Below, one piece after another: positions 127 to 13,779 of a stretch of DNA of 64,000 bases; position 1 is the stretch's first letter, and each line of letters opens with the position of its first letter. This DNA is from Gammaproteobacteria bacterium (GTDB lineage: Bacteria > Pseudomonadota > Gammaproteobacteria > GCA-001735895), in contig JALSKD010000053.1 in the NCBI GenBank assembly GCA_026989015.1, positions 1 to 64,000 on the forward strand. Reading direction: 5' to 3'. The notes under the pieces were generated by a model. It ran no database searches, was not told the DNA's origin, and saw only the letters and a program-made list of their open reading frames with translations. The position numbers and the translations under genes were made by a program.

Positions 127-222
127 GTAGAAGGCCAGCAGTGCTTCCCGATCCTTCTCCAGGCAGGCCACCGCCTTCGGGTATTTCGCCTGGTATGTCT
201 GCACAAAGTGGTCGAAGGCCTT
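124..222 (-). pseudogene. Remnant of a second IS256-family transposase (internal fragment)
   Basis: Minus-strand frame reads ELKAFDHFVQTYQAKYPKAVACLEKDREALLAFYG*. This matches the IS256 transposase segment that normally precedes DFPAEHW; the match stops where the new IS end begins (126/127). Confidence 0.65.
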
Positions 223-2258
223 CAATTCTGTCGCTTGCGCACCAGGGTCAGCACATCGTAGTTGGCTACGGCTTCGTCGTTCTGGTTGACGAGGGTGGTG
301 TCCCAGCGTACTTCGCCATACTCTTCGCCTTCGCGGTCGGTTTTCTGTTTGCAGGTGAATTGTACGCGGATGCGGTCGCCGGCATAGACGGGCGCGGCGA
401 AGCGCAGGTCGTCGAGGCCGTAGTTGGCAAGCACCGGCCCTTCGTCGGGCCAGACGAACAGGCCGGCGGCCAGTGACACGAGGAAGTAGCCGTGCGCAAC
501 GCGCCCTTCGAAGAAAGGGTTGCGGCGTGCGGCGTCCTCGTCCATGTGGGCGTAGAAGCGGTCGCCGGAAAGATCGGCGAAGCGTTCGATGTCTTCAAGG
601 GTGATCTCGCGTTCGGCGGTGATCACCGCATCGCCAATCTCCAGTTCATCGAAATGTTTCTGGAAGGGGTGACGGTATTCGTCCAGTTGCCGCGTCGCGC
701 CCTGCATCCATCGTCCGGTGATAGCGGTGAGCATGTCGGGTGAGCCCTGGAGGGCCGTGCGTTGCATGTAGTGGGTGACGCCGCGGACTCCGCCCATTTC
801 CTCGCTGGCGCCGGCACGGCCCGGGCCGCCGTGAATGAGGTGGGGCAGGGGCGATCCGTGACCCGTGGATTCCTTCGCCGCCACCGGATCGAGGATCAGC
901 AGGCGGCCGTGGTGGGGTGCAACGCCGATGCCGAGGCGGGTGGCGATGGCCGAGTCTTCGGTGACGATGGAGCCGACCAGACTGCCGCGGCCCTGCGCGG
1001 CGAGTTCGATGGCTTCTTCCTCGTCGTGATAGGCCATCAGGGTACAGACCGGGCCGAAGGCTTCGATGTCGTGGGCGCTGCTGCTCAGCGGGTCGCGGGC
1101 GTGGAGCAGAACGGGGGGCAGGAAGGCGCCCCGTTCCGCGTCGGCGTCCAGGGGGTCTGCGTGCAGATCTTCGCCAAGCAGGATTTCGTTGTCCTGGGCC
1201 AGTTGGCGGATGCGCTCGGCCACGCTGTCGCGCTGGGCCTGGCCGGCCAGTGCGCCCATGCGCACCCGTTCGTTGCGCGGGTTGCCGACCGTCAGGTCGC
1301 GCAAGCGTTGCCGCAGAGCTTCGGCCACCGCGTCGATGCGGTCGGCGGGCACCAGGGCGCGGCGGATGGCGGTGCATTTCTGTCCCGCCTTGGCGGTCAT
1401 CTCGCGTGTCAGCTCCTTGATGTAGAGGTCGAAGGCGGTGCTGCCGGGCCGTACATCGCGGCCGAGGATGCTGCAGTTGAGGGAGTCGGCCTCCATGAAG
1501 AATCGGGTGGCGTTGCGCTGGATGGCGGGGGTCTGTGCCAGTTTCAGGCCGGTGGCGTGGGAACCGGTGAAGCTTACCGCGTCCTGATAGTCGAGCCGGT
1601 CGAGCAGGTCGCCGGTGCCGCCGCAGATCAGCTGTACCGCGCCTTCGGGCAGGATGCCGGAGTCGATGATGCTGCGGAACATGCATTCCGTCAGCCAGGC
1701 GGTCTGACGCGCCGGCTTGACGATGGCGGGCACCCCGGCGAGCAGGGTGGGGGCCAGTTTTTCCAGCATGCCCCAGCAGGGAAAGTTGAAGGCGTTGATG
1801 TGGACGGCCGCCCCCTGCAGCGGCGAGTAGACATGCTGCGCGGTGAATCCGCCTTCGCGCGAGATGCGTTCCTGCGCGCCGTCGAGATAGAGGTGGGCGT
1901 TGGGCATCTCGCGGCGGCCCTTTCCGGAATAGACGAACAGTGTCGAGATGCCGCCTTCGATGTCGATCCAGGCGTCGTTGCGGGTGGCGCCGGTGGCCCA
2001 GCTTTCGGCGTAGAAGCGGTCTTTTTGAGCCATCAGGTGCTGGCCCAGCGCTTTCAGCATCAGCGCCCGCTGGTGGAAGGTGTAGTGACGCAGCGCCGGT
2101 CCGCCGATGCTGCGTGCATGATCGAGTATGGCCTGCATGTCGAGTCCCTCGCTGCCGATCACCGCCACCGGTTCGGCGGTGACCGCGTCGTGCAGGATCT
2201 GGCCGTGCTCGGGTGCTGCGACCCATTCGCCGCAGGCGTAGGATTCGAGGCGGCGCAT
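222..2258 (-). CDS. paaZ: Bifunctional aldehyde dehydrogenase / enoyl-CoA hydratase PaaZ
   Basis: ALDH domain (NAFNFPCWG, GQKCTAIRR) fused to a C-terminal MaoC-like hydratase domain; start MRRLESYACGEW at 2258. Confidence 0.93.
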   Translation of the reverse strand: MRRLESYACGEWVAAPEHGQILHDAVTAEPVAVIGSEGLDMQAILDHARSIGGPALRHYTFHQRALMLKALGQHLMAQKDRFYAESWATGATRNDAWIDIEGGISTLFVYSGKGRREMPNAHLYLDGAQERISREGGFTAQHVYSPLQGAAVHINAFNFPCWGMLEKLAPTLLAGVPAIVKPARQTAWLTECMFRSIIDSGILPEGAVQLICGGTGDLLDRLDYQDAVSFTGSHATGLKLAQTPAIQRNATRFFMEADSLNCSILGRDVRPGSTAFDLYIKELTREMTAKAGQKCTAIRRALVPADRIDAVAEALRQRLRDLTVGNPRNERVRMGALAGQAQRDSVAERIRQLAQDNEILLGEDLHADPLDADAERGAFLPPVLLHARDPLSSSAHDIEAFGPVCTLMAYHDEEEAIELAAQGRGSLVGSIVTEDSAIATRLGIGVAPHHGRLLILDPVAAKESTGHGSPLPHLIHGGPGRAGASEEMGGVRGVTHYMQRTALQGSPDMLTAITGRWMQGATRQLDEYRHPFQKHFDELEIGDAVITAEREITLEDIERFADLSGDRFYAHMDEDAARRNPFFEGRVAHGYFLVSLAAGLFVWPDEGPVLANYGLDDLRFAAPVYAGDRIRVQFTCKQKTDREGEEYGEVRWDTTLVNQNDEAVANYDVLTLVRKRQN

Positions 2259-2259
2259 G

Positions 2260-3564
2260 CTAGAGCGAGCGCCGGTCGATGACGCGCTGGGCCTTGCCCT
2301 GGGAGCGGGCGATGGCGTCGACATCGTGCACCTGTACCCGGGTGCTGACGCCGATCAGCGACTTGATGTGGTGGCGCAGTTCCTGCGCCATGCGCTCGCG
2401 GCTGTCGGCGCTGCAGTCGGTTTCGCGGACCTCCACATTCACCGTCAGGTTGTCGAGGTTGTCGTCGCGGGTGATTTCCAGTTGGTAATGGGGGGACAGG
2501 CCCTCCACCTTGAGGATCATCTCCTCGATCTGCGACGGGAATACATTGACGCCGCGGATGATCATCATGTCGTCGCTGCGGCCGGTGATCTTGTCCATGC
2601 GGCGCATGCTGCGCGCGGTGCCGGGCAGCAGGCGGGTCAGGTCACGGGTACGGTAGCGGATGATCGGCATGGCCTCCTTGATCAGCGAGGTGAACACCAG
2701 TTCGCCTTCTTCGCCGTCGGGCAGCGGTTGCAGGGTCTCGGTATCGATGATCTCCGGGTAGAAACAGTCTTCCCAGATGGTGGGGCCGTCCTTGGTCTCG
2801 ATGCACTCCTGGGCGACACCGGGCCCAATGACCTCGGAAAGGCCGTAGATGTCCACCGCGTGGATGCCGAGGCGGGTTTCGATCTCTTCGCGCATGGCGT
2901 TGGTCCAGGGCTCGGCGCCGAAGATGCCGATGCGCAGCGAGCAGGTCTTCGGATCCACGCCCTGGCGTTCGAACTCGTCGGCGATGTTGAGGCAGTAGGA
3001 GGGTGTGACCATGATGATGTCGGGTTCGAAGTCGCGAATCAGCTGAACCTGTTTCTCGGTCTGACCTCCGGACATGGGAATGACGGTGCAGCCCAGCCGC
3101 TCGGCGCCGTAGTGCGCGCCCAGGCCGCCGGTGAACAGGCCATAACCGTAGGAGACATGCACCTTGTCGCCGGGCGAGCCGCCGGCGGCACGGATCGAAC
3201 GTGCCATCACATCGGCCCAGCGATCGATGTCGCCCTGGGTGTAACCGACCACGGTGGGCTTGCCGGTGGTACCGCTGGAGGCGTGCACCCGCACCACCTC
3301 GCGCATGGGGACGGCGAAGGTGCCGAACGGGTAGTGATCGCGCAGATCCTGCTTGGTGGTGTAGGGGAACAGGCGGATGTCGTCGAGGGTTTTCAGGTCG
3401 CTGGGGTGAACGCCGGCCTCGTCGAACTTGTGCCGGTACATGGGCACATTGTAATAGGCCAGGTCCAGGGTCCATTTCAGGCGCTTGAGCTGCAGGGCCT
3501 GCAGCTCGTCACGGCTGGCGGTTTCGATCGGTTCCAGTTCGATGGGGCTCGTGGAAAAACTCAT
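2260..3564 (-). CDS. paaK: Phenylacetate-CoA ligase
   Basis: AMP-ligase motifs SSGTTGKPTVVGYT and YGLSEVIGPGVAQEC; paa cluster context. Confidence 0.95.
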   Translation of the reverse strand: MSFSTSPIELEPIETASRDELQALQLKRLKWTLDLAYYNVPMYRHKFDEAGVHPSDLKTLDDIRLFPYTTKQDLRDHYPFGTFAVPMREVVRVHASSGTTGKPTVVGYTQGDIDRWADVMARSIRAAGGSPGDKVHVSYGYGLFTGGLGAHYGAERLGCTVIPMSGGQTEKQVQLIRDFEPDIIMVTPSYCLNIADEFERQGVDPKTCSLRIGIFGAEPWTNAMREEIETRLGIHAVDIYGLSEVIGPGVAQECIETKDGPTIWEDCFYPEIIDTETLQPLPDGEEGELVFTSLIKEAMPIIRYRTRDLTRLLPGTARSMRRMDKITGRSDDMMIIRGVNVFPSQIEEMILKVEGLSPHYQLEITRDDNLDNLTVNVEVRETDCSADSRERMAQELRHHIKSLIGVSTRVQVHDVDAIARSQGKAQRVIDRRSL

Positions 3565-3600
3565 GGTCGTTATCCTCTGCGGGTGGTGTAGACGGCGGGT

Positions 3601-4806
3601 TCAGACCCGCTCTATGACGGTGGCGATACCCTGGCCGACGCCAATGCACATGGTGCACAGCGCGTAACGGCCACCGCTGCGCCGGAGTTGCCGCGCGGCG
3701 GTGGTGATCAGCCGCGCGCCACTCATGCCCAGCGGATGGCCGAGGGCGATGGCGCCGCCGTTGGGGTTGACCTGGGGGGCATCGTCCGGCAGGCCGAGCT
3801 GGCGCAGCACGGCCAGTGCCTGGGCGGCGAAGGCTTCGTTGAGTTCGATCACATCCATCTGTTCGATGGTCAGGCCCAGGCGGTCGAGCAGCCGCTGGCT
3901 GGCCGGTGCCGGGCCAATGCCCATGATGCGCGGCTCGACGCCCGCGGTGGCCATGCCGACGACACGGGCGATGGGTTCCAGTCCGTGGCGGGCGGCGGCC
4001 CGCTCGCTGGCGACGAGCATCGCGCAGGCACCGTCGTTGACGCCGGAGGCATTGCCGGCGGTGACCGTGCCGCCTTCGCGGAAGGGCGTGGGCAGCCGCG
4101 CCAGGGCTTCCAGTGTGGTGTCGGCGCGGGGGTGTTCGTCGCGGTCTACGGTCAGCGGTTCCGCCTTGCGCCGGGGCACGCTGACCGCAATGATCTCCTC
4201 GCCAAGAATGCCGTTGGCCTGGGCCGCGGCCGTGCGCTGCTGGGACCGCAGCGCAAAGGCGTCCTGATCGTCGCGGGCGATACCGAATTGCTCGGCGACA
4301 TTCTCGGCCGTTTCGGGCATGGAATCGATGCCGTATTCGGCCCGCATCTTCGGATTGGGAAAGCGCCAGCCGATGGTGGTGTCGTAGATTTCGGCATTGC
4401 GGCTGAATGCGCTGCTGGCCTTGGGCATGACGAAGGGCGCGCGCGACATGGATTCGACGCCTCCGGCGATGATCAGCTCCGCCTCGCCGGCCTTGATGCT
4501 GCGGGCGGCCAGACCGACCGCGTCCATGCCGGAACCGCACAGCCGGTTGACGGTGCTGCCGGGCACATTCACCGGCAGGCCGGCCAGCAGCGCGGCCATG
4601 CGCGCCACATTGCGGTTGTCCTCGCCGGCCTGGTTGGCGTTGCCGTAGTACACATCGTCCACTGCCTCCCAGTCGAGGCCGGGGTGACGCGCCATCAGTT
4701 CGGTGATGGGCAGGGCGCCCAGATCATCGGCACGAACCGATGACAAGGCGCCGCCGTAGCGGCCGATGGGGGTGCGGATGGGGTCGCAGATGAACGCCTG
4801 TGTCAT
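3601..4806 (-). CDS. paaJ: 3-oxoadipyl-CoA/3-oxo-5,6-dehydrosuberyl-CoA thiolase
   Basis: Thiolase motifs VNRLCGSGMDAV, NPNGGAIALGHPLGMSG, ALCTMCIGVGQG; paa context. Confidence 0.9.
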   Translation of the reverse strand: MTQAFICDPIRTPIGRYGGALSSVRADDLGALPITELMARHPGLDWEAVDDVYYGNANQAGEDNRNVARMAALLAGLPVNVPGSTVNRLCGSGMDAVGLAARSIKAGEAELIIAGGVESMSRAPFVMPKASSAFSRNAEIYDTTIGWRFPNPKMRAEYGIDSMPETAENVAEQFGIARDDQDAFALRSQQRTAAAQANGILGEEIIAVSVPRRKAEPLTVDRDEHPRADTTLEALARLPTPFREGGTVTAGNASGVNDGACAMLVASERAAARHGLEPIARVVGMATAGVEPRIMGIGPAPASQRLLDRLGLTIEQMDVIELNEAFAAQALAVLRQLGLPDDAPQVNPNGGAIALGHPLGMSGARLITTAARQLRRSGGRYALCTMCIGVGQGIATVIERV

Positions 4807-5261
4807 GTGTCGTCCTCGGATTCGGTAGGGATGATCTGACCGCGAATCTGATGCGCGTTGCCGCGGAACAGCGCGATCAGTTCGTCGTTCTGGTTGTGGA
4901 TTTCGACATCGTAGACGCCGGTGCGGCGGCCACGGCTGCGCTCGAAGGCGGTGGCGGTGAGCCGGTCGCCGAGCCGCGCCGGCGCCAGGAACTGGATCTG
5001 CGCGGCGGCGGCGATGGTGATGCGGTTGTAACTGTTGCAGGCATGGGCGAAGGCGGTATCGGCCAGCGTGAACAGCATGCCGCCGTGGCAGATGTCGTGG
5101 CCGTTGGTCATGCGCTGTTCGACGGTCATTGCCAGTCGGGCGCGTCCCGGCTCGGTATCGAGCACCTCGATGCCCAGCATCCGCGCGGCGTCGTCGTTGG
5201 CGTGCATGGCCGTGCTGCAGGCCCGGGCCAGTTGCACCGGTTCGGTGGGGCGCTCAGTCAT
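4803..5261 (-). CDS. paaI: Hydroxyphenylacetyl-CoA thioesterase PaaI
   Basis: Hotdog-fold thioesterase, NGHDICHGGMLFTLADTAFAHACNSYN. Confidence 0.9.
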   Translation of the reverse strand: MTERPTEPVQLARACSTAMHANDDAARMLGIEVLDTEPGRARLAMTVEQRMTNGHDICHGGMLFTLADTAFAHACNSYNRITIAAAAQIQFLAPARLGDRLTATAFERSRGRRTGVYDVEIHNQNDELIALFRGNAHQIRGQIIPTESEDDT

Positions 5262-6771
5262 GGAAGCCTTCTCCTGCGGCGACCTTGCGCAGCAGCAGTG
5301 GCGACGGCCGGTAACGGTCCTCGCCGTAGGTTTTCTGCAGGTGTTTCAATACCTTGAGCAATGGTCTGAGGCCGATGCGGTCGGCCCAGGCCAGCGGCCC
5401 CAGCGGATAATTCACGCCGGCCTGCATGGCGGTGTCCACCGCTGCCGCATCGCAAACCCCCTGGTTGACCGCGTCGGCGCCCTCGTTGGCGAGCATGGCC
5501 ACGGTGCGCAATACCACCATCCCCGGCACATCGTCGATGACGGTGACCCGCTTGCCCAGGGCCTGCAGCAGTCCGGTTGCCTGTTCCAGGGCGCGCGGGC
5601 TGGCCTGATCGGCGGCGCAGAGGGTGATGCGCGCTGTGTTTTCGAGGTCCAGGCAGAGGTCGTAGAGCACCAGATCGCGGATGTTGTCGCGGTGCGCGCG
5701 CACCGTGGCCATGTGGCCGTCGCTGGGGCGCAGGGTGAAGCCGTCGCATAGAATCGACAGGTGTTCGCCAGACAGGACCTGGAAAGCCAGGCCGCTGGAT
5801 TCGAGCAGGGCTTTCCAGGGGGCGATCTGCGTTTCCGTACCGATGACAGTGACCTCCCGCGGTGGGGCGCAAGGCGGCTGTTCGGCCGGGGCCGGGTTGT
5901 CCGCGCCCTCGCGGTAATCGTAGAAGCCGCGGCCGCTCTTGCGGCCCAGCCATCCGGCATCGACCAGCGCTTTCTGGATCAGCGACGGGGTGAAGCGGGG
6001 ATCGCCGTAGTAGGCATGGTGCACCGATTCGGTGACTGCGTAGTTCACATCCTGGCCGATCAGATCCATCAGCTCGAAGGGACCCATGCGGAAGCCACCG
6101 CCGTCGCGGTAGATGGCGTCGAGGGTGGCCGCGTCGGCCGCGCCTTCCTGCAGCAGGCGCAGGGCTTCGGCGTAGTAGGGGCGGGCCACGCGGTTGACGA
6201 TGAAACCGGGGGTGGAGCGGGCATGCACCGCCAGCTTCCCCCAGGCGGTGGCGGTGTCGAACAGGGTCTCGGCCAGCGCCGGATCGCTGGCCAGGCCGCT
6301 GATGATCTCCACCAGTTTCATGATCGGCGCCGGGTTGAAGAAGTGCATGCCGAGCAGTCGCTGCGGCCGTTCAAGGGCTGAGCCGATGGCGGTGATCGAC
6401 AGTGACGAGGTGTTGCTGGCCAGTATCGCCTTGGGACAAAGGGTTTCCAGTTCGCGGAACAGCCGCTGCTTGATATTCAGATCCTCGACGATCGCCTCGA
6501 TCACCAGTGCCGCATCGCCGATGGCCTCAAGACGCTCCACCGGCTGGATGCGTCCGACCAGGGCCTGCTGCTCTTCGGCGCTGATGCGGCCACGCTGCAC
6601 CAATTTGTCGAGACCCTGGTCGATTCGGTCGATGGCTGCCCGGGCGGCGCCATCGGCCTGATCATAAAGCCGTACCGGATGGCCGGCCGCGGCGGCCACC
6701 TGGGCGACGCCACCGCCCATGGCGCCGGCGCCGACGACGGCGATGACAGAGTTCGGGTCCAGTGCGCTCAT
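5254..6771 (-). CDS. paaH: 3-hydroxyacyl-CoA dehydrogenase PaaH
   Basis: Rossmann motif VVGAGAMGGGVAQVAA; tandem 3HCDH domains; likely start MSALDPNS at 6771. Confidence 0.9.
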   Translation of the reverse strand: MSALDPNSVIAVVGAGAMGGGVAQVAAAAGHPVRLYDQADGAARAAIDRIDQGLDKLVQRGRISAEEQQALVGRIQPVERLEAIGDAALVIEAIVEDLNIKQRLFRELETLCPKAILASNTSSLSITAIGSALERPQRLLGMHFFNPAPIMKLVEIISGLASDPALAETLFDTATAWGKLAVHARSTPGFIVNRVARPYYAEALRLLQEGAADAATLDAIYRDGGGFRMGPFELMDLIGQDVNYAVTESVHHAYYGDPRFTPSLIQKALVDAGWLGRKSGRGFYDYREGADNPAPAEQPPCAPPREVTVIGTETQIAPWKALLESSGLAFQVLSGEHLSILCDGFTLRPSDGHMATVRAHRDNIRDLVLYDLCLDLENTARITLCAADQASPRALEQATGLLQALGKRVTVIDDVPGMVVLRTVAMLANEGADAVNQGVCDAAAVDTAMQAGVNYPLGPLAWADRIGLRPLLKVLKHLQKTYGEDRYRPSPLLLRKVAAGEGFHD

Positions 6772-6772
6772 C

Positions 6773-7564
6773 TCATCGTCCCCTGAATTCGGGTTCGCGC
6801 TTTTCGATGAAGGCGGCCACACCCTCGCGGTAGTCTTCGGTGCGCCCGGCCAGCCGTTGCAGGTCGCGTTCCACATCCAGCTGGCGGTCGAGGTCGTGTT
6901 CGCTGGACAGCAGCAGGGCGCGCTTGAGGTAGCCGAGGCCGCGGGTGGGCTGACGGGCGAGGTGGCCGGCCAGCTTCAATGCCTGGGGCATCAGCTCTTC
7001 GTCACCCAGTGCCTTCCAGATCATGCCCCAGTCGGCGGCCTGCTGGGCGCTGACCTTTTCCGCCAGCATCGTGATCGCCGTCGCCCGCGCGCGCCCGATC
7101 AAGCGTGGCAGCAGCCAGCTGCCACCGGAGTCAGGGATCAGCCCGATGCGGCTGAAGGACTGAACGAAATAGGCGGATTGGGCGGCGAGTACGATGTCGC
7201 AGGCCAGGGCCAGGTTGGCGCCGGCGCCGGCGGCGACGCCGTTGACCGCACAGACCACCGGCTTCTCCAGGCGCATGATGCGGCGGATCAGCGGGTTGTA
7301 GTTGCGTTCCAGCGAGTCGCCCAGGTCAGGCATCTCGGTGTCGGGTGCGACATCGCGGTCGCCCAGGTCCTGCCCGGCGCAAAAGGCGCGGCCGGCCCCG
7401 GTCAGCAGCAGGCAGCGGATGCTGTCGTCGCGTTCCACGGTCTTCATCGCGGCGCGCATCTCCTCGTGCATCCGGGCGTTGAAGCTGTTCAGCTTGTCGG
7501 GCCGGTTGAGCGTCAGCGTGGCAACGCCGTCGCCGTGATCGAAAATGAGTGTTTCGTAGGACAC
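6773..7564 (-). CDS. paaG: Enoyl-CoA isomerase, PaaG-type
   Basis: Crotonase family, GAGRAFCAGQDLGDRDV and ending AFIEKREPEFRGR. Confidence 0.88.
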   Translation of the reverse strand: MSYETLIFDHGDGVATLTLNRPDKLNSFNARMHEEMRAAMKTVERDDSIRCLLLTGAGRAFCAGQDLGDRDVAPDTEMPDLGDSLERNYNPLIRRIMRLEKPVVCAVNGVAAGAGANLALACDIVLAAQSAYFVQSFSRIGLIPDSGGSWLLPRLIGRARATAITMLAEKVSAQQAADWGMIWKALGDEELMPQALKLAGHLARQPTRGLGYLKRALLLSSEHDLDRQLDVERDLQRLAGRTEDYREGVAAFIEKREPEFRGR

Positions 7565-7580
7565 GCTGTACTCCTGTCGG

Positions 7581-8357
7581 TTATCGCCCCTTGAATTCGG
7601 GCGGGCGTTTTTCGAGAAAGGCGGCCAGCCCTTCCTGACGGTCTTCGGTACCGGCGAGCAGCACGAAGGCCTTGCGTTCGAATTCCAGTGCCGCCGACAG
7701 CGGCATTTCGTCGGCCAGGCGCAACGCCTGTTTGGCCTGACGGATCGCCAGTGGCGGGCGGCTGGCCAGTTCGCGGGCCAGGGTCTGGGCGTCTTCCAGA
7801 GTCAGTTCCGGCTCGCAGACGCGGCTGACAAGCCCGGCGCGCAGCGCGGTGCGCGCATCGATGAAAGCGCCGCTGAACACCATTTCGCTGGCCAGCGAGC
7901 GGCCGACGCGGCGGATCAGCCGCTGGATGCCGCCGGCGCCGGGGATGATGCCGAGGCGGATTTCCGGTTGGCCGAACCGTGCATTGCGGCCGGCATGGAT
8001 GATGTCGGCCTGCAACGCCAGTTCGCAGCCGGCGCCGAGGGCATGTCCGTTGACCGCGGCGATCAGCGGCTTGGGGCATTGCTGGATGCGTTGCCACAGA
8101 GCCGGTCGCGGATCGTCGAGCATGTCGGTCATGTCCATGCCGGCCATTTCGGCGACATCGGCACCGGCGGCGAAGCAGCGTTGGTCGCCGGTGATCACCA
8201 CCGCACCGATGGCATCATCGGTGGCCGCCGCGTCCAGCGCATCTGCCAGCTCGGCAAGCATTGCGGTACGCAGCGCGTTGCGTACCTCGGGGCGGTTCAG
8301 GGTGACGGTGAGTACGCCCTGACTCTGTTCGGTGATGATGTCCTGATAGCGGTTCAT
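7581..8357 (-). CDS. paaF: 2,3-dehydroadipyl-CoA hydratase, PaaF-type
   Basis: Crotonase family, FAAGADVAEM, GAGCELALQADI, AFLEKRPPEFKGR. Confidence 0.87.
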   Translation of the reverse strand: MNRYQDIITEQSQGVLTVTLNRPEVRNALRTAMLAELADALDAAATDDAIGAVVITGDQRCFAAGADVAEMAGMDMTDMLDDPRPALWQRIQQCPKPLIAAVNGHALGAGCELALQADIIHAGRNARFGQPEIRLGIIPGAGGIQRLIRRVGRSLASEMVFSGAFIDARTALRAGLVSRVCEPELTLEDAQTLARELASRPPLAIRQAKQALRLADEMPLSAALEFERKAFVLLAGTEDRQEGLAAFLEKRPPEFKGR

Positions 8358-8429
8358 GTGCGGTTCCCGGTGCGCCCGTCGGGACGCTTCATGGTCGGTG
8401 GGGTAAAATATACACGAAGCGCCAAATGA

Positions 8430-8467
8430 GATACAGTATCGAAAGAAAATAACCTTAAAACTGTATC
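8430..8467. promoter_or_regulatory. Candidate PaaX operator GATACAG-N24-CTGTATC in the paaF/paaY divergent promoter
   Basis: Arms at 8430-8436 and 8461-8467; the same arms and spacing recur at 13061-13098. Confidence 0.6.
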
Positions 8468-8495
8468 ATAAAATTCTCAAGGTTCAGGAGATCCC

Positions 8496-9110
8496 ATGCC
8501 TTTTTATGCAATCGACGGCGTGCGCCCGGTAGCGCACCCGAGCAGTTTCATCCATCCCACCGCCAGCATCATTGGCGATGTCATCATCGGCGCCCATTGC
8601 TACATCGGGCCTGGCGCCTCGCTGCGCGGCGATTTCGGCCGCATGGTGATCGAGGAAGGGGCCAATATTCAGGACACCTGCGTGCTGCACAGTTTTCCCC
8701 GAGCCGAATGCCGGGTCGGTCCCAATGGCCATATCGGGCATGGCGCGGTCTTGCACGGTTGCGTGGTCGAGGAGGCCGCGCTGGTGGGCATGAACGCGGT
8801 ATTGATGGACGGGGTAGTGGTCGGTGAGTCGTCCATCGTCGCTGCCATGAGTTTTGTCAAGGCCGGTTTCGAGATTCCCGCCCGTTGCCTGGCCGCCGGT
8901 GCGCCGGTGCGCATCCTGCGTGAACTCAAGGAACAGGAACTGGAGTGGAAGCGAACCGGCACCGAGGATTATCACGAACTGGCGCGCCGCTCATTGGCCA
9001 GCATGGTGGAAGTAACGCCCTTGCCGGAGATCGAGGACGACCGGCCGGAACTGCAGCTGGCGGACGCGGTGCCGCTGTATCAGCTCAAGCAAGGCCAGCG
9101 CGAGGGCTGA
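8496..9110 (+). CDS. paaY: PaaY, left-handed beta-helix (gamma-carbonic-anhydrase-like) protein
   Basis: Hexapeptide repeats, PTASIIGDVIIGAHCYIGPGASLRGDFG. Confidence 0.92.
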   Translation: MPFYAIDGVRPVAHPSSFIHPTASIIGDVIIGAHCYIGPGASLRGDFGRMVIEEGANIQDTCVLHSFPRAECRVGPNGHIGHGAVLHGCVVEEAALVGMNAVLMDGVVVGESSIVAAMSFVKAGFEIPARCLAAGAPVRILRELKEQELEWKRTGTEDYHELARRSLASMVEVTPLPEIEDDRPELQLADAVPLYQLKQGQREG

Positions 9111-9111
9111 C

Positions 9112-10059
9112 ATGCCGCTGGGAGATACGGGAACGGCGTTCAGCCAGGCCTTCGACCGGTTCTTCGAAGGCTTTGCGCGGGATCGCCCCTTGCATGCCAA
9201 TTCGCTGATCCTGACCCTGTTCGGCGATTCGGTCTGTCCGCACGGAGGTGAAATCTGGCTGGGCAGCCTGATCCGGCTGGTGGAGCCTCTGGGCATCAAC
9301 CAGCGGCTGGTTCGTACCTCGGTGTTTCGGCTGGTGGACAAGGGCATCCTGCAATCCCGCCAACAGGGCCGGCGCAGCTTTTATTCTCTGACCGATACAG
9401 GCTACCGCCAGTTTTCCACCGCCGCGCAACGCATCTACCACCACCACGAGCAACGCTGGGACGGAGAATGGCGGCTGGTGTTCACCCATCTGGCCGATCT
9501 GCCCGATGTCCGGCGCGAACAGCTGCACAAGGAGTTGCAATGGCTGGGCTTCAGCCGGCTGGCCAAGGGCATCTACGGCCACCCGACGGTGAGTCTGGAG
9601 CAGGTGCGGCTGGTGACCGACGAAATGGGCATCGAACCGGCGGTGACGCTGATGCGCGCGCGGGTGGAGAACGATGATCCGGTGCTGTCGTCGGTGGATC
9701 TGGTGCGCAGCGCTTTCCAGGTCGAGGCGCTGAAACAGGCCTATGCGGCGTTCATCGATCTGTTCCGCCCGATGCTGGAAACGGCCGGCGAACCGGGCGA
9801 GGGCGACGAGGAAGCCTGTTTTCTGTTGCGCACGCTGCTGATCCACGAATACCGCCACCTGCTGTTGCGCGAACCGGACCTGCCGGCGGAGCTGTTTCCC
9901 GCCGACTGCCTGAGCCATCCGGCGCGGGATCTGGTGGCCGCCTTGTACCGGCGCATCCGTGAGCCGGCGGAACGGCACCTGATGGAACGGGCGGAATCGG
10001 AGCAGGGCCGGTTGCCGCCGGCCGATGCGGCCTTCGCCCGGCGCTTTGCCGGTGCCTGA
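9112..10059 (+). CDS. paaX: Phenylacetate-responsive transcriptional repressor PaaX
   Basis: PaaX family features: SLILTLFGDSVCPHGGEIWLGSLIRLVEPLGINQRLVRTSVFRL. Confidence 0.93.
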   Translation: MPLGDTGTAFSQAFDRFFEGFARDRPLHANSLILTLFGDSVCPHGGEIWLGSLIRLVEPLGINQRLVRTSVFRLVDKGILQSRQQGRRSFYSLTDTGYRQFSTAAQRIYHHHEQRWDGEWRLVFTHLADLPDVRREQLHKELQWLGFSRLAKGIYGHPTVSLEQVRLVTDEMGIEPAVTLMRARVENDDPVLSSVDLVRSAFQVEALKQAYAAFIDLFRPMLETAGEPGEGDEEACFLLRTLLIHEYRHLLLREPDLPAELFPADCLSHPARDLVAALYRRIREPAERHLMERAESEQGRLPPADAAFARRFAGA

Positions 10060-10066
10060 TATGCCC

Positions 10067-11368
10067 TCAGCGGTACAGCCACTGCGGCAGGATCAGTGAG
10101 ATCGCGGGGATCAGCGTGATCAGCGACAGACGGACGATGTCGGCGACCCAGAAGGGCGTGACGCCCCGGAAGATGTCACCGGTCTTCACATCCTTCAGTA
10201 CCCCGCTGAGCACGAATACATTGAGCCCCACTGGCGGTGTGATCAGGCTGATCTCGGTGACCACCACCACCACGATGCCGAACCACACCAGGTCGAAGCC
10301 CAGGCTCTCCACCACCGGGTAGAAGATCGGCACCGTCAGCAGCAGCATCGACAGGCTCTCGAACACGCAGCCGAGCACGATGTAGATGGCAAGAATCATC
10401 AGGATCACCGTCATCGGGCTGATGTCGTGACCACTGATCAGCCCCAGCAGCTGGTCCGGCAGCCCGGCGCGGGTGATGAAGCTGGAGAAGATCAAGGCAC
10501 CGATCACTACCGCGAACAGTGAGGATGTGGTCATCGCCGTTTCCGACAGTACTTCCCAGGCGCTTTTCCAGCTCAGGCTGCGCCGCGACAGGGCAATGAT
10601 GAAGGCGCCTGCGGCGCCGATGCCGGCGGCCTCGGTGGGGGTGAACACCCCGCCGTAGATACCGCCCATGACCACGCCGAACAGGATCAGCGTGCCCCAC
10701 ACGCCGGCCAGGGATTGCCAGCGCTGGGGCCAGCCGAGGCGATCGCCGGGCGGCCCGGCTTCGGGTTTGCGCCAGACCGTCCAGGCCACCGCGCCCAGAT
10801 ACAGCAATACGCCGAGCAACCCCGGCAGGAAGCCGGCGGCGAACAGTTCGCGGATGCTTTGCTCAGTCATGATGGCGTAGATCACCAGGATTACGCTGGG
10901 CGGTATCAGGATGCCGAGGGTGCCGCCGGCGGCGATCGACGCCGCGGCCAGCGAATCGCTGTAGCCGTAACGGCGCATCGGTGGCATCGATACCTTGGCC
11001 ATGGTGGCCGCGGTGGCAAGGCTGGAGCCGCAAATCGCCGAAAAACCCCCGCAGGCGACCACGGTGGCCATCGACAGCCCGCCGCGCAGGTGGCCGAGAA
11101 AGGCGTAGGACGCCTTGTACAACTCCTGCGACAGGCCGGCGCGGGTAACCAGGTTGCCCATCAGGATGAACAGCGGAATCACCGACAAGCCGTAATCCTG
11201 GGCGGTGTCGATGACGCGCCGCGAGGCCATCGACAGTGATGCGATCCAGTTGCCGTCGTTGAGGTAAAGAAAGCCGAAAAAGCCGACCAGCCCCATGGCG
11301 AAGCTGATCGGCATGCGCGCCAGGATCAGCAGCAGCAGGATCAGGAAACCGCCAATCGAAACCTCCAT
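10067..11368 (-). CDS. dctM: TRAP transporter large permease DctM-type
   Basis: Multi-TM; LARMPISFAMGLVGFFGFLYL, GGTLGILIPPSVILVIYAIMTE. Confidence 0.93.
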   Translation of the reverse strand: MEVSIGGFLILLLLILARMPISFAMGLVGFFGFLYLNDGNWIASLSMASRRVIDTAQDYGLSVIPLFILMGNLVTRAGLSQELYKASYAFLGHLRGGLSMATVVACGGFSAICGSSLATAATMAKVSMPPMRRYGYSDSLAAASIAAGGTLGILIPPSVILVIYAIMTEQSIRELFAAGFLPGLLGVLLYLGAVAWTVWRKPEAGPPGDRLGWPQRWQSLAGVWGTLILFGVVMGGIYGGVFTPTEAAGIGAAGAFIIALSRRSLSWKSAWEVLSETAMTTSSLFAVVIGALIFSSFITRAGLPDQLLGLISGHDISPMTVILMILAIYIVLGCVFESLSMLLLTVPIFYPVVESLGFDLVWFGIVVVVVTEISLITPPVGLNVFVLSGVLKDVKTGDIFRGVTPFWVADIVRLSLITLIPAISLILPQWLYR

Positions 11369-11369
11369 G

Positions 11370-11897
11370 TCAGCAGAACTCCTCGCGGCTGCGCTGCTGG
11401 CGCCACTGTCGCCAGGCCCGGTAGTTGCCGAGGCTGACGGTCATCACGGCGGTCAGCCAGCAGGAGACGGCAATGAACAGCATCATCCAGCCGCTGGGTA
11501 TGCCCAGGTATTCGGTAACTTCTTCATAGCTCAGCGAACGCTGGCCCAGCACCCAGATGCGCTGGCCAAGAAAGATCAGCGAGCCGGAGATCAGCAGGTT
11601 GAACAGCAGCGTGCGCAGCAGGTGCAGCCAGGGGGGCACGAAACCGTCCAGAATGTCCACCACCACCTGATCGTTGCGCCAGGTGATGATCGGAAACACC
11701 GAGAACACGACGATGCCGACCGCGATTTCGGTCAGCTCGGTGGATCCGGTCAGCGGCCGGTTGAACAGGTAACGGCCGGTCACATCGATGACGGTGATCA
11801 TCATCAGAGCGAGCAGAGTGAAGGCCGACAGCCCCTGTAAAAAAAGGACCAATCCGCGGATTGGTCCCTTTTCGGTGGCTTGCGTCAGATCCGCCAT
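11370..11897 (-). CDS. dctQ: TRAP transporter small permease DctQ-type
   Basis: Four TM segments, VIDVTGRYLFNRPLTGSTELTE; between dctM and dctP. Confidence 0.9.
   Translation of the reverse strand: MADLTQATEKGPIRGLVLFLQGLSAFTLLALMMITVIDVTGRYLFNRPLTGSTELTEIAVGIVVFSVFPIITWRNDQVVVDILDGFVPPWLHLLRTLLFNLLISGSLIFLGQRIWVLGQRSLSYEEVTEYLGIPSGWMMLFIAVSCWLTAVMTVSLGNYRAWRQWRQQRSREEFC
11839..11872 (-). terminator. Intrinsic-terminator-like element inside the dctQ coding sequence
   Basis: Perfect 22-bp palindrome GGACCAATCCGCGGATTGGTCC (11846-11867), followed in the direction of transcription by seven T residues (11845-11839). Confidence 0.65.
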
Positions 11898-12944: not shown

Positions 12945-13060
12945 GATGTCATCCTCTTTCGTGGTCGATGCGTGTTGGTTCCCGGGGCCTGAATTCGGGC
13001 CTGCCGGGTTCAATCTCGTTATGGTCGGGCGTGGCCGCTGTGGGTCGCCGTGGTTGATAT

Positions 13061-13098
13061 GATACAGATAGTGGAAGTATAATCAATCACACTGTATC
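13061..13098. promoter_or_regulatory. Second copy of the candidate PaaX operator GATACAG-N24-CTGTATC, upstream of dctP
   Basis: Arms 13061-13067 and 13092-13098; spacing identical to the paa site. Confidence 0.6.
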
Positions 13099-13239
13099 AG
13101 ATCGAGGCCTTGCTACGGCTTTATCCTACGCCGCTTGCGGCCCGTGCAGCCTGGAAAGGCCATAATCTTTCGGCAGAATTCCGTTATTCGTAAAAATCGA
13201 AACCGGACTGTAGCCCCCGATAACCACCGGAAATTTTCC

Positions 13240-13779
13240 ATGAGCGATCCCACATCAGCCGAGCCCGACCCCCTCAATGAATTTTCCGGTTGCCATGAGG
13301 GTATCATCCGCAATTTTCATCAATTGTCCGAGTTTGCCGACCGGGTGGAGCAGGGCGAAGATCCGGAAACCCTGAGGCCGTTGGCAAAACGCCTGTTGCG
13401 TTTCTTCGAGGACGTGGTGCTGGAACATCATGGCGAGGAGGAAGAGGAGTTGTTCACCGCAGTGCGTGACAGCCTTGACGGCGAGGCGGATGCCGAACTG
13501 GCGCAGCAGCAGATCGATCGCCTCGTGCGCGAGCACCGGGATCTTGAGGCGCTGTGGAGCGAGATCGAGCCGGCCATTCGCCGCATCGCCCGCGGCAAGC
13601 CGGCCGCGCTGGACAGCCAGCGCGCCCGTTTGCTGGCCGAGCGGTATCTGGCCCATGCGGCCTTCGAGGAGCGCGAATTTCTGCCGCTTGCGAAGCGGAT
13701 ACTCAGCAAGAATGCGATGTCGGCACTGGGTCTGTCCCTGCACATGCGTCATCAGCGCAAGGTGAATCCCTACATCTGA
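13240..13779 (+). CDS. Hemerythrin domain-containing protein
   Basis: CHEGIIRNFHQL, VLEHHGEEEEELF, REHRDLEALW, AAFEEREFLPLAKRIL; start MSDPTSAEP at 13240. Confidence 0.82.
   Translation: MSDPTSAEPDPLNEFSGCHEGIIRNFHQLSEFADRVEQGEDPETLRPLAKRLLRFFEDVVLEHHGEEEEELFTAVRDSLDGEADAELAQQQIDRLVREHRDLEALWSEIEPAIRRIARGKPAALDSQRARLLAERYLAHAAFEEREFLPLAKRILSKNAMSALGLSLHMRHQRKVNPYI

Follow-up and report, generated by a model that had tools for sequence, protein, structure and literature searches.

In Escherichia coli the paa genes are controlled by the repressor PaaX, whose box has been published as TGATTC-N27-GAATCA (PMC9493321), and we recovered TGATTC-N27-GAATCG 5' of E. coli paaA in a genome search. Phenylacetyl-CoA is the inducer of PaaX in the literature, with release established for the E. 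coli protein. Burkholderia PaaR is, like PaaX, a paa repressor responsive to phenylacetyl-CoA, however, it belongs to another protein family (TetR) and acts at a 15-bp inverted repeat between -35 and -10 (PMC2770484). Uptake is a poorly known step of the phenylacetyl-CoA catabolon. PaaL/PaaM of Pseudomonas putida resemble the locus described here in that the uptake step is encoded with the paa genes, although PaaL is a different type of permease that depends on sigma-54 in strain CA-3, whereas our locus holds a three-part TRAP transporter with a predicted PaaX operator (PMC3224230, PMC2653477). Of the genomes compared in one survey, P. putida alone carried PaaL (PMC2653477), and transporters go unmentioned in a pathway survey from 2026 (PMC13186573). 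TarPQM-type and related aromatic-acid TRAPs (TarP_Sse, TarP_Csal, TarP_Rhp; Salmon et al., 2013, PMC3610893) share the DctP-type solute-binding protein (SBP) fold with our transporter, and solved relatives hold coumarate, cinnamate, ferulate, caffeate, or 4-hydroxyphenylacetate. Our transporter differs from these in its paa catabolon context and putative PaaX control, and its DctP is 22-35% identical in sequence to solved structures. Our literature search returned no phenylacetate TRAP and no TRAP genes in PaaX regulons, while an earlier listing in a regulon database is possible.

The window analyzed here is a 64,000-nucleotide stretch of a gammaproteobacterial contig in which an SBP and a small and a large TRAP membrane subunit are encoded by three tandem genes in one operon beside paaX and a paa catabolic operon (Table 1). 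We propose that a PaaX operator lies over the dctPQM promoter and that DctPQM imports phenylacetate or a closely related arylacetic acid, a reading that we consider quite probable on the genomic evidence set out below. The PaaX box and the TRAP importer are of kinds already known, and what is new is the substrate and regulon assignment.

Table 1. Coordinates of features in the window; operators, promoters, and functions are predictions.
Feature	Position	Strand	Basis
paaF-G-H-I-J-K-Z catabolic operon	222..8357	-	NCBIfam equivalogs
Putative PaaX operator between paaF and paaYX, AGATACAG-N24-CTGTATCA	8429..8468	.	pattern scan, conservation
paaY, thioesterase by homology, co-directional with paaX	8496..9110	+	TIGR02287
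paaX, repressor with wHTH domain, phenylacetyl-CoA-responsive by homology	9112..10059	+	TIGR02277, Pfam
dctM, large TRAP membrane subunit	10067..11368	-	TIGR00786, PF06808
dctQ, small TRAP membrane subunit	11370..11897	-	PF04290
dctP, TRAP solute-binding protein, 340 aa	11922..12944	-	PF03480
Predicted divergent promoter toward hemerythrin gene, TTGATA-N18-TATAAT	13054..13083	+	promoter scan
Predicted sigma-70 promoter of dctPQM	13059..13086	-	promoter scan; position relative to operator kept in orthologues
Putative PaaX operator of dctPQM, TGATACAG-N24-CTGTATCA	13060..13099	-	pattern scans, orthologue conservation
Hemerythrin-domain protein, 179 aa, divergent from dctP	13240..13779	+	PF01814

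Upstream of dctP, GATACAG (13061-13067) and CTGTATC (13092-13098) enclose a 24-bp gap (13068-13091) exactly as an earlier note on this DNA had read them, and the paa site at 8430-8467 has, as also claimed there, the same arms and gap length around an unlike spacer sequence. The arms of the dctP site extend to 8 bp, one more than first described (TGATACAG at 13060-13067 and CTGTATCA at 13092-13099), and the outermost bases of the paa site are unpaired (AGATACAG...CTGTATCA). Pattern searches of the 2.9 Mb assembly, which is 98.5% complete, gave these two sites (8430-8467 and 13061-13098) as the only exact matches with the gap allowed to range from 18 to 30 bp, and GATACAG-N24-CTGTATC was matched 0 times in 100 dinucleotide shuffles of the window. 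When up to two mismatches in 12 arm bases were allowed at fixed spacing, a third site with one mismatch was detected 62 bp upstream of paaA on another contig (C22:26131-26168 of genome G000; about 6131-6170 of locus L132), where paaA and the genes behind it (paaABCDE) lie. Sites with fewer than two mismatches therefore number three in the assembly, at paaF/paaYX, paaABCDE, and dctPQM and nowhere else, and matches with two mismatches are background (30 per strand vs. 64 for a reversed-pattern control). A reading of the two palindromes as coincidental or as a functionless repeated element, for which no support was found, is contradicted by these counts as well as by conservation of the site ahead of orthologous dctP genes whose products are no more than 75-80% identical, and we regard it as vanishingly unlikely.

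The gene adjacent to dctPQM encodes a true PaaX, scoring 272.7 bits against TIGR02277 (cut-off 264.6), with the three PaaX domains (PF07848, PF20803, PF08223), 35% identity to E. coli PaaX, and the VRT..FRL segment of the helix-turn-helix region retained. PaaY reached 291.8 bits against TIGR02287, slightly under the cut-off of 319.6. Compared with the E. coli box, each arm in the window (TGATAC) is altered at one base and the spacer is one base longer (TGATAC-N28-GTATCA vs. N27). In both systems two inverted half-sites are separated by about three helical turns and overlap paa core promoters, and the cluster encodes a PaaX homologue, whereas the transporter operon is an additional target here. 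The element at dctP thus has inverted TGATNC/GNATCA half-sites about 27 bp apart that overlap a predicted core promoter, and it recurs in this genome at the promoters of the paa catabolic genes (8430-8467 and C22:26131-26168); judged by its sequence, it is a PaaX box. Across the wider set of genomes the box falls into two spacing classes, N28 (TGATAC/GTATCA) in the family of the window and some Oceanospirillaceae, and N27 in Thiothrix, Vibrio, Marinobacterium, and E. coli.

Conservation was assessed in 41 genomes of the family, with DctP orthologues taken at 75% identity or more. DctP and PaaX are each present in nine of these and occur together in eight (Fisher p = 8e-7, kinship being ignored), with G026 counted as PaaX-bearing from a fragment at a contig end. 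The two exceptions are G009, with DctP and no PaaX, and G001, with PaaX and no detected DctP. G009 has a close dctPQM (75%; L067), neither PaaX nor PaaA was detected in this genome, and the site upstream of its dctP is degenerate and differently spaced (TGATACA-N25-TATATCA). The idea that G001 is devoid of the transporter was rejected, as its scaffold carries a partial dctQ, situated at an N gap, and dctM beside an indolepyruvate:ferredoxin oxidoreductase (IOR), and the absence of dctP is likely an assembly gap. In G034 (L042, 4180-4530), dctQ and most of dctM are gone behind dctP, through deletion or an assembly fault. An exact-arm search of the family genomes gave chance-like matches except in this genome and at the paa site of G040; it was uninformative because orthologous sites vary at the inner G/C of the arms, such that TGATACA is kept and GATACAG is not, and aligned upstream regions were used in its place. 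In these alignments every one of the eight genomes having both dctP and paaX shows TGATACA-N26-TGTATCA ahead of dctP, with 14/14 arm bases in six of them, 13 in G012, and 11 in G011, and it is kept in G011, G012, and G026, where dctPQM does not adjoin paaX. In the family the same motif also occupies the paaF-paaY gap and the region preceding paaA.

The promoter scan predicts a dctPQM -35 hexamer, TTGATT (13086-13081), within the operator spacer and, 16 bp further, a -10 hexamer, TATCAT (13064-13059), on the right arm. Since both hexamers fall in or on it, the operator spans the core promoter predicted here, an arrangement that fits a repressor acting by exclusion of polymerase. The scan selected the hexamers seen in the aligned dctP sites, and one layout is common to the dctP and paaA promoters, namely an arm, 6 bp, TTGA (-35), 16 bp, and TATCAT (-10) on the other arm, with the paaA sites of five genomes reading TGATACA-N6-TTGAC...GTATCATAA. 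The two TGATACA half-sites are 33 bp apart from centre to centre, or about three helical turns. At the dctP sites of the PaaX-bearing genomes, the TTG of the -35 is invariably spaced 6 bp from the left arm (8/8) and TATCAT lies on the right arm in 7/8, so that promoter position relative to the operator is retained, most clearly in six of the eight. With a true PaaX next door, arms that match the published box, and a site, spacing, and promoter geometry fixed upstream of dctP and paaA orthologues, the earlier proposal that dctPQM belongs to the PaaX regulon is well founded, and on this comparative evidence we hold membership to be near-certain.

A second promoter under the operator, facing the divergent hemerythrin gene, was missing from the earlier reading. 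It overlaps the operator and both dctP hexamers, matches the consensus at 11/12 positions vs. 9/12 for the dctP promoter, and is kept in G040 and G033 (11/12) and in G034 (10/12); it is not kept in G021 or in genomes where dctP was found to have no hemerythrin neighbour. Co-occurrence with PaaX is seen for hemerythrin orthologues in 7/9 genomes (p = 1.2e-5). Co-regulation of this gene as a further member of the PaaX regulon is possible, and we suggest tentatively that a single PaaX operator may control two overlapping face-to-face promoters, one for dctPQM and one for a hemerythrin-like oxygen-binding protein. If so, PaaX would induce two further components along with the oxygen-dependent phenylacetyl-CoA epoxidase pathway, namely a dedicated phenylacetate TRAP importer and a protein that handles oxygen, and PaaX regulons would gain a role in oxygen supply or sensing. 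The better consensus match, its retention in three other genomes of the same arrangement, and the co-occurrence with PaaX could even mean that the operator mainly serves the hemerythrin gene, dctPQM being unregulated or incidentally regulated. However, G026, G011, and G012 retain both the operator and the -35 in front of dctP, next to which no hemerythrin gene was found, and the dctP promoter is laid out like that of paaA; for hemerythrin genes distant from dctP (G001, G026, G019), control by PaaX was also rejected, as no good operator is present there. Such a hemerythrin-centred role is therefore very unlikely, and the operator is better read as that of dctPQM.

Beyond the family, we inspected 56 relatives of DctP from named genomes, and in about 25 cases paa genes lie no more than 10 kb away. 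In Thiothrix eikelboomii, dctPQM is inside the paa operon with flanking gaps of about 50 bp or less, the order being operator, paaZ, paaABCDE, dctPQM, paaG, paaI, and paaK. Significant sites immediately precede dctP in Marinobacterium arenosum, Marinobacterium litorale, uncultured Oceanospirillaceae, Vibrio galatheae, Enterovibrio, and Endozoicomonas OPT23, and the site seen in Thiothrix, Grimontia celer, and some others is at a different promoter of the cluster and not immediately at dctP. The study of Endozoicomonas OPT23 describes the paa cluster, and a term search of that text gave no TRAP (PMC6955870). In the DctP tree the window protein falls within a well supported, mostly paa-linked clade. 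Relatives at 45-60% identity are also found beside hpa (4-hydroxyphenylacetate) or GlcDEF genes, so by these neighbourhoods the ligand range of the subfamily is broader than phenylacetate. The hpa (4-hydroxyphenylacetate/homoprotocatechuate) cases are L082, L106-L108, and L113. The relatives in L084, L096, and L097 have no adjacent dctQM and stand directly behind GlcDEF-type 2-hydroxyacid oxidase genes, which possibly reflects use of an aromatic 2-hydroxyacid (mandelate or phenyllactate).

The AlphaFold model of DctP (pLDDT 92) was ranked by Foldseek nearest, in this order, to 4p56 (Bordetella), TarP_Sse with coumarate and cinnamate, a metagenome SBP described as aromatic-acid-specific, 5im2, and TarP_Csal, with TM values of 0.88 to 4p56 and 0.85-0.88 to TarP_Sse and the metagenome protein. 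TarP_Rhp with 4-hydroxyphenylacetate (7nqg) followed at rank 25 and sialic-acid and lactate binders further down, and the profile search gave a similar order. Apart from 4p56 and 5im2, for which the Foldseek table gives no ligand, the top matches are TRAP SBPs whose structures contain aromatic acids or that are described as specific for them. As the solved structures nearest in both fold and sequence bind aromatic acids, an aromatic carboxylate is the expected ligand class, and phenylacetate, the member of that class that fits PaaK and PaaX, is the likely ligand on genomic grounds among candidates that include 4-hydroxyphenylacetate, phenylpyruvate, and mandelate. The generic family annotation (PF03480, TIGR00786) would suit a C4-dicarboxylate or general organic-acid importer that neighbours the paa genes by chance, however, the best matches of DctP in structure and profile searches alike are aromatic-acid SBPs, the operator is conserved, and paa and hpa neighbourhoods recur in several orders, making such an importer scarcely credible. 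Another alternative keeps DctPQM in the PaaX regulon and assigns it phenylpyruvate, phenyllactate, mandelate, or phenylglyoxylate as main cargo, to be converted internally to phenylacetyl-CoA. IOR enzymes are able to convert arylpyruvate to arylacetyl-CoA, and the IOR operon located just downstream of dctPQM in G011, G012, and G026 is itself preceded by a PaaX-type site; the adjacency of DctP relatives to GlcDEF-type oxidases and the top-ranked 4p56, which we take to be a mandelate complex, point the same way. On the other hand, IOR was not found in the genome of the window or its congener G040, PaaK is present and regulated, and Thiothrix and Marinobacterium carry dctPQM among paa genes with no IOR within the stretch examined. 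We consider a precursor unlikely as the main cargo, with phenylpyruvate as the best alternative ligand to phenylacetate because of the IOR operon with its own PaaX-type site behind dctPQM in those three genomes. Sites at IOR operons were located at L072:10070-10109 and L064:6566-6605 and also in L142. Their arrangement suggests that the sister genomes have a PaaX-controlled branch from arylpyruvate to arylacetyl-CoA, absent in the genome of the window.

Returning to phenylacetate as the main ligand of DctPQM, which we infer from the lines of evidence above, a model can be proposed in which PaaX binding, repression, and release by phenylacetyl-CoA at dctPQM are drawn by analogy with E. coli. 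When phenylacetyl-CoA is absent, a PaaX dimer on both TGATACA half-sites would cover TTGATT and TATCAT and exclude RNA polymerase. As phenylacetate enters, PaaK would make phenylacetyl-CoA and PaaX would release the operator, such that three promoter sets open together, those of paaFGHIJKZ/paaYX, of paaABCDE on the other contig, and of dctPQM. DctPQM would then import more phenylacetate or a related arylacetic acid by ion-coupled TRAP transport, creating positive feedback. Import of phenylacetate or an aromatic precursor, as the earlier note proposed, is supported by paa-cluster synteny, co-occurrence with PaaX, and the fold of DctP. That note saw a substrate assignment from cis-regulation alone; cis-regulation does carry the assignment, but not alone, since synteny, co-occurrence, and fold concur.

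DctPQM is probably the missing first step, uptake, of the phenylacetate pathway. Overall, in several gammaproteobacterial orders a TRAP system is tied to the phenylacetyl-CoA catabolon by a shared operator as well as by synteny, co-occurrence, and fold, offering a clear example of how a transporter substrate can be assigned via cis-regulation. This provides a precise ligand hypothesis for a transporter whose annotation goes no further than the general TRAP/DctP family.
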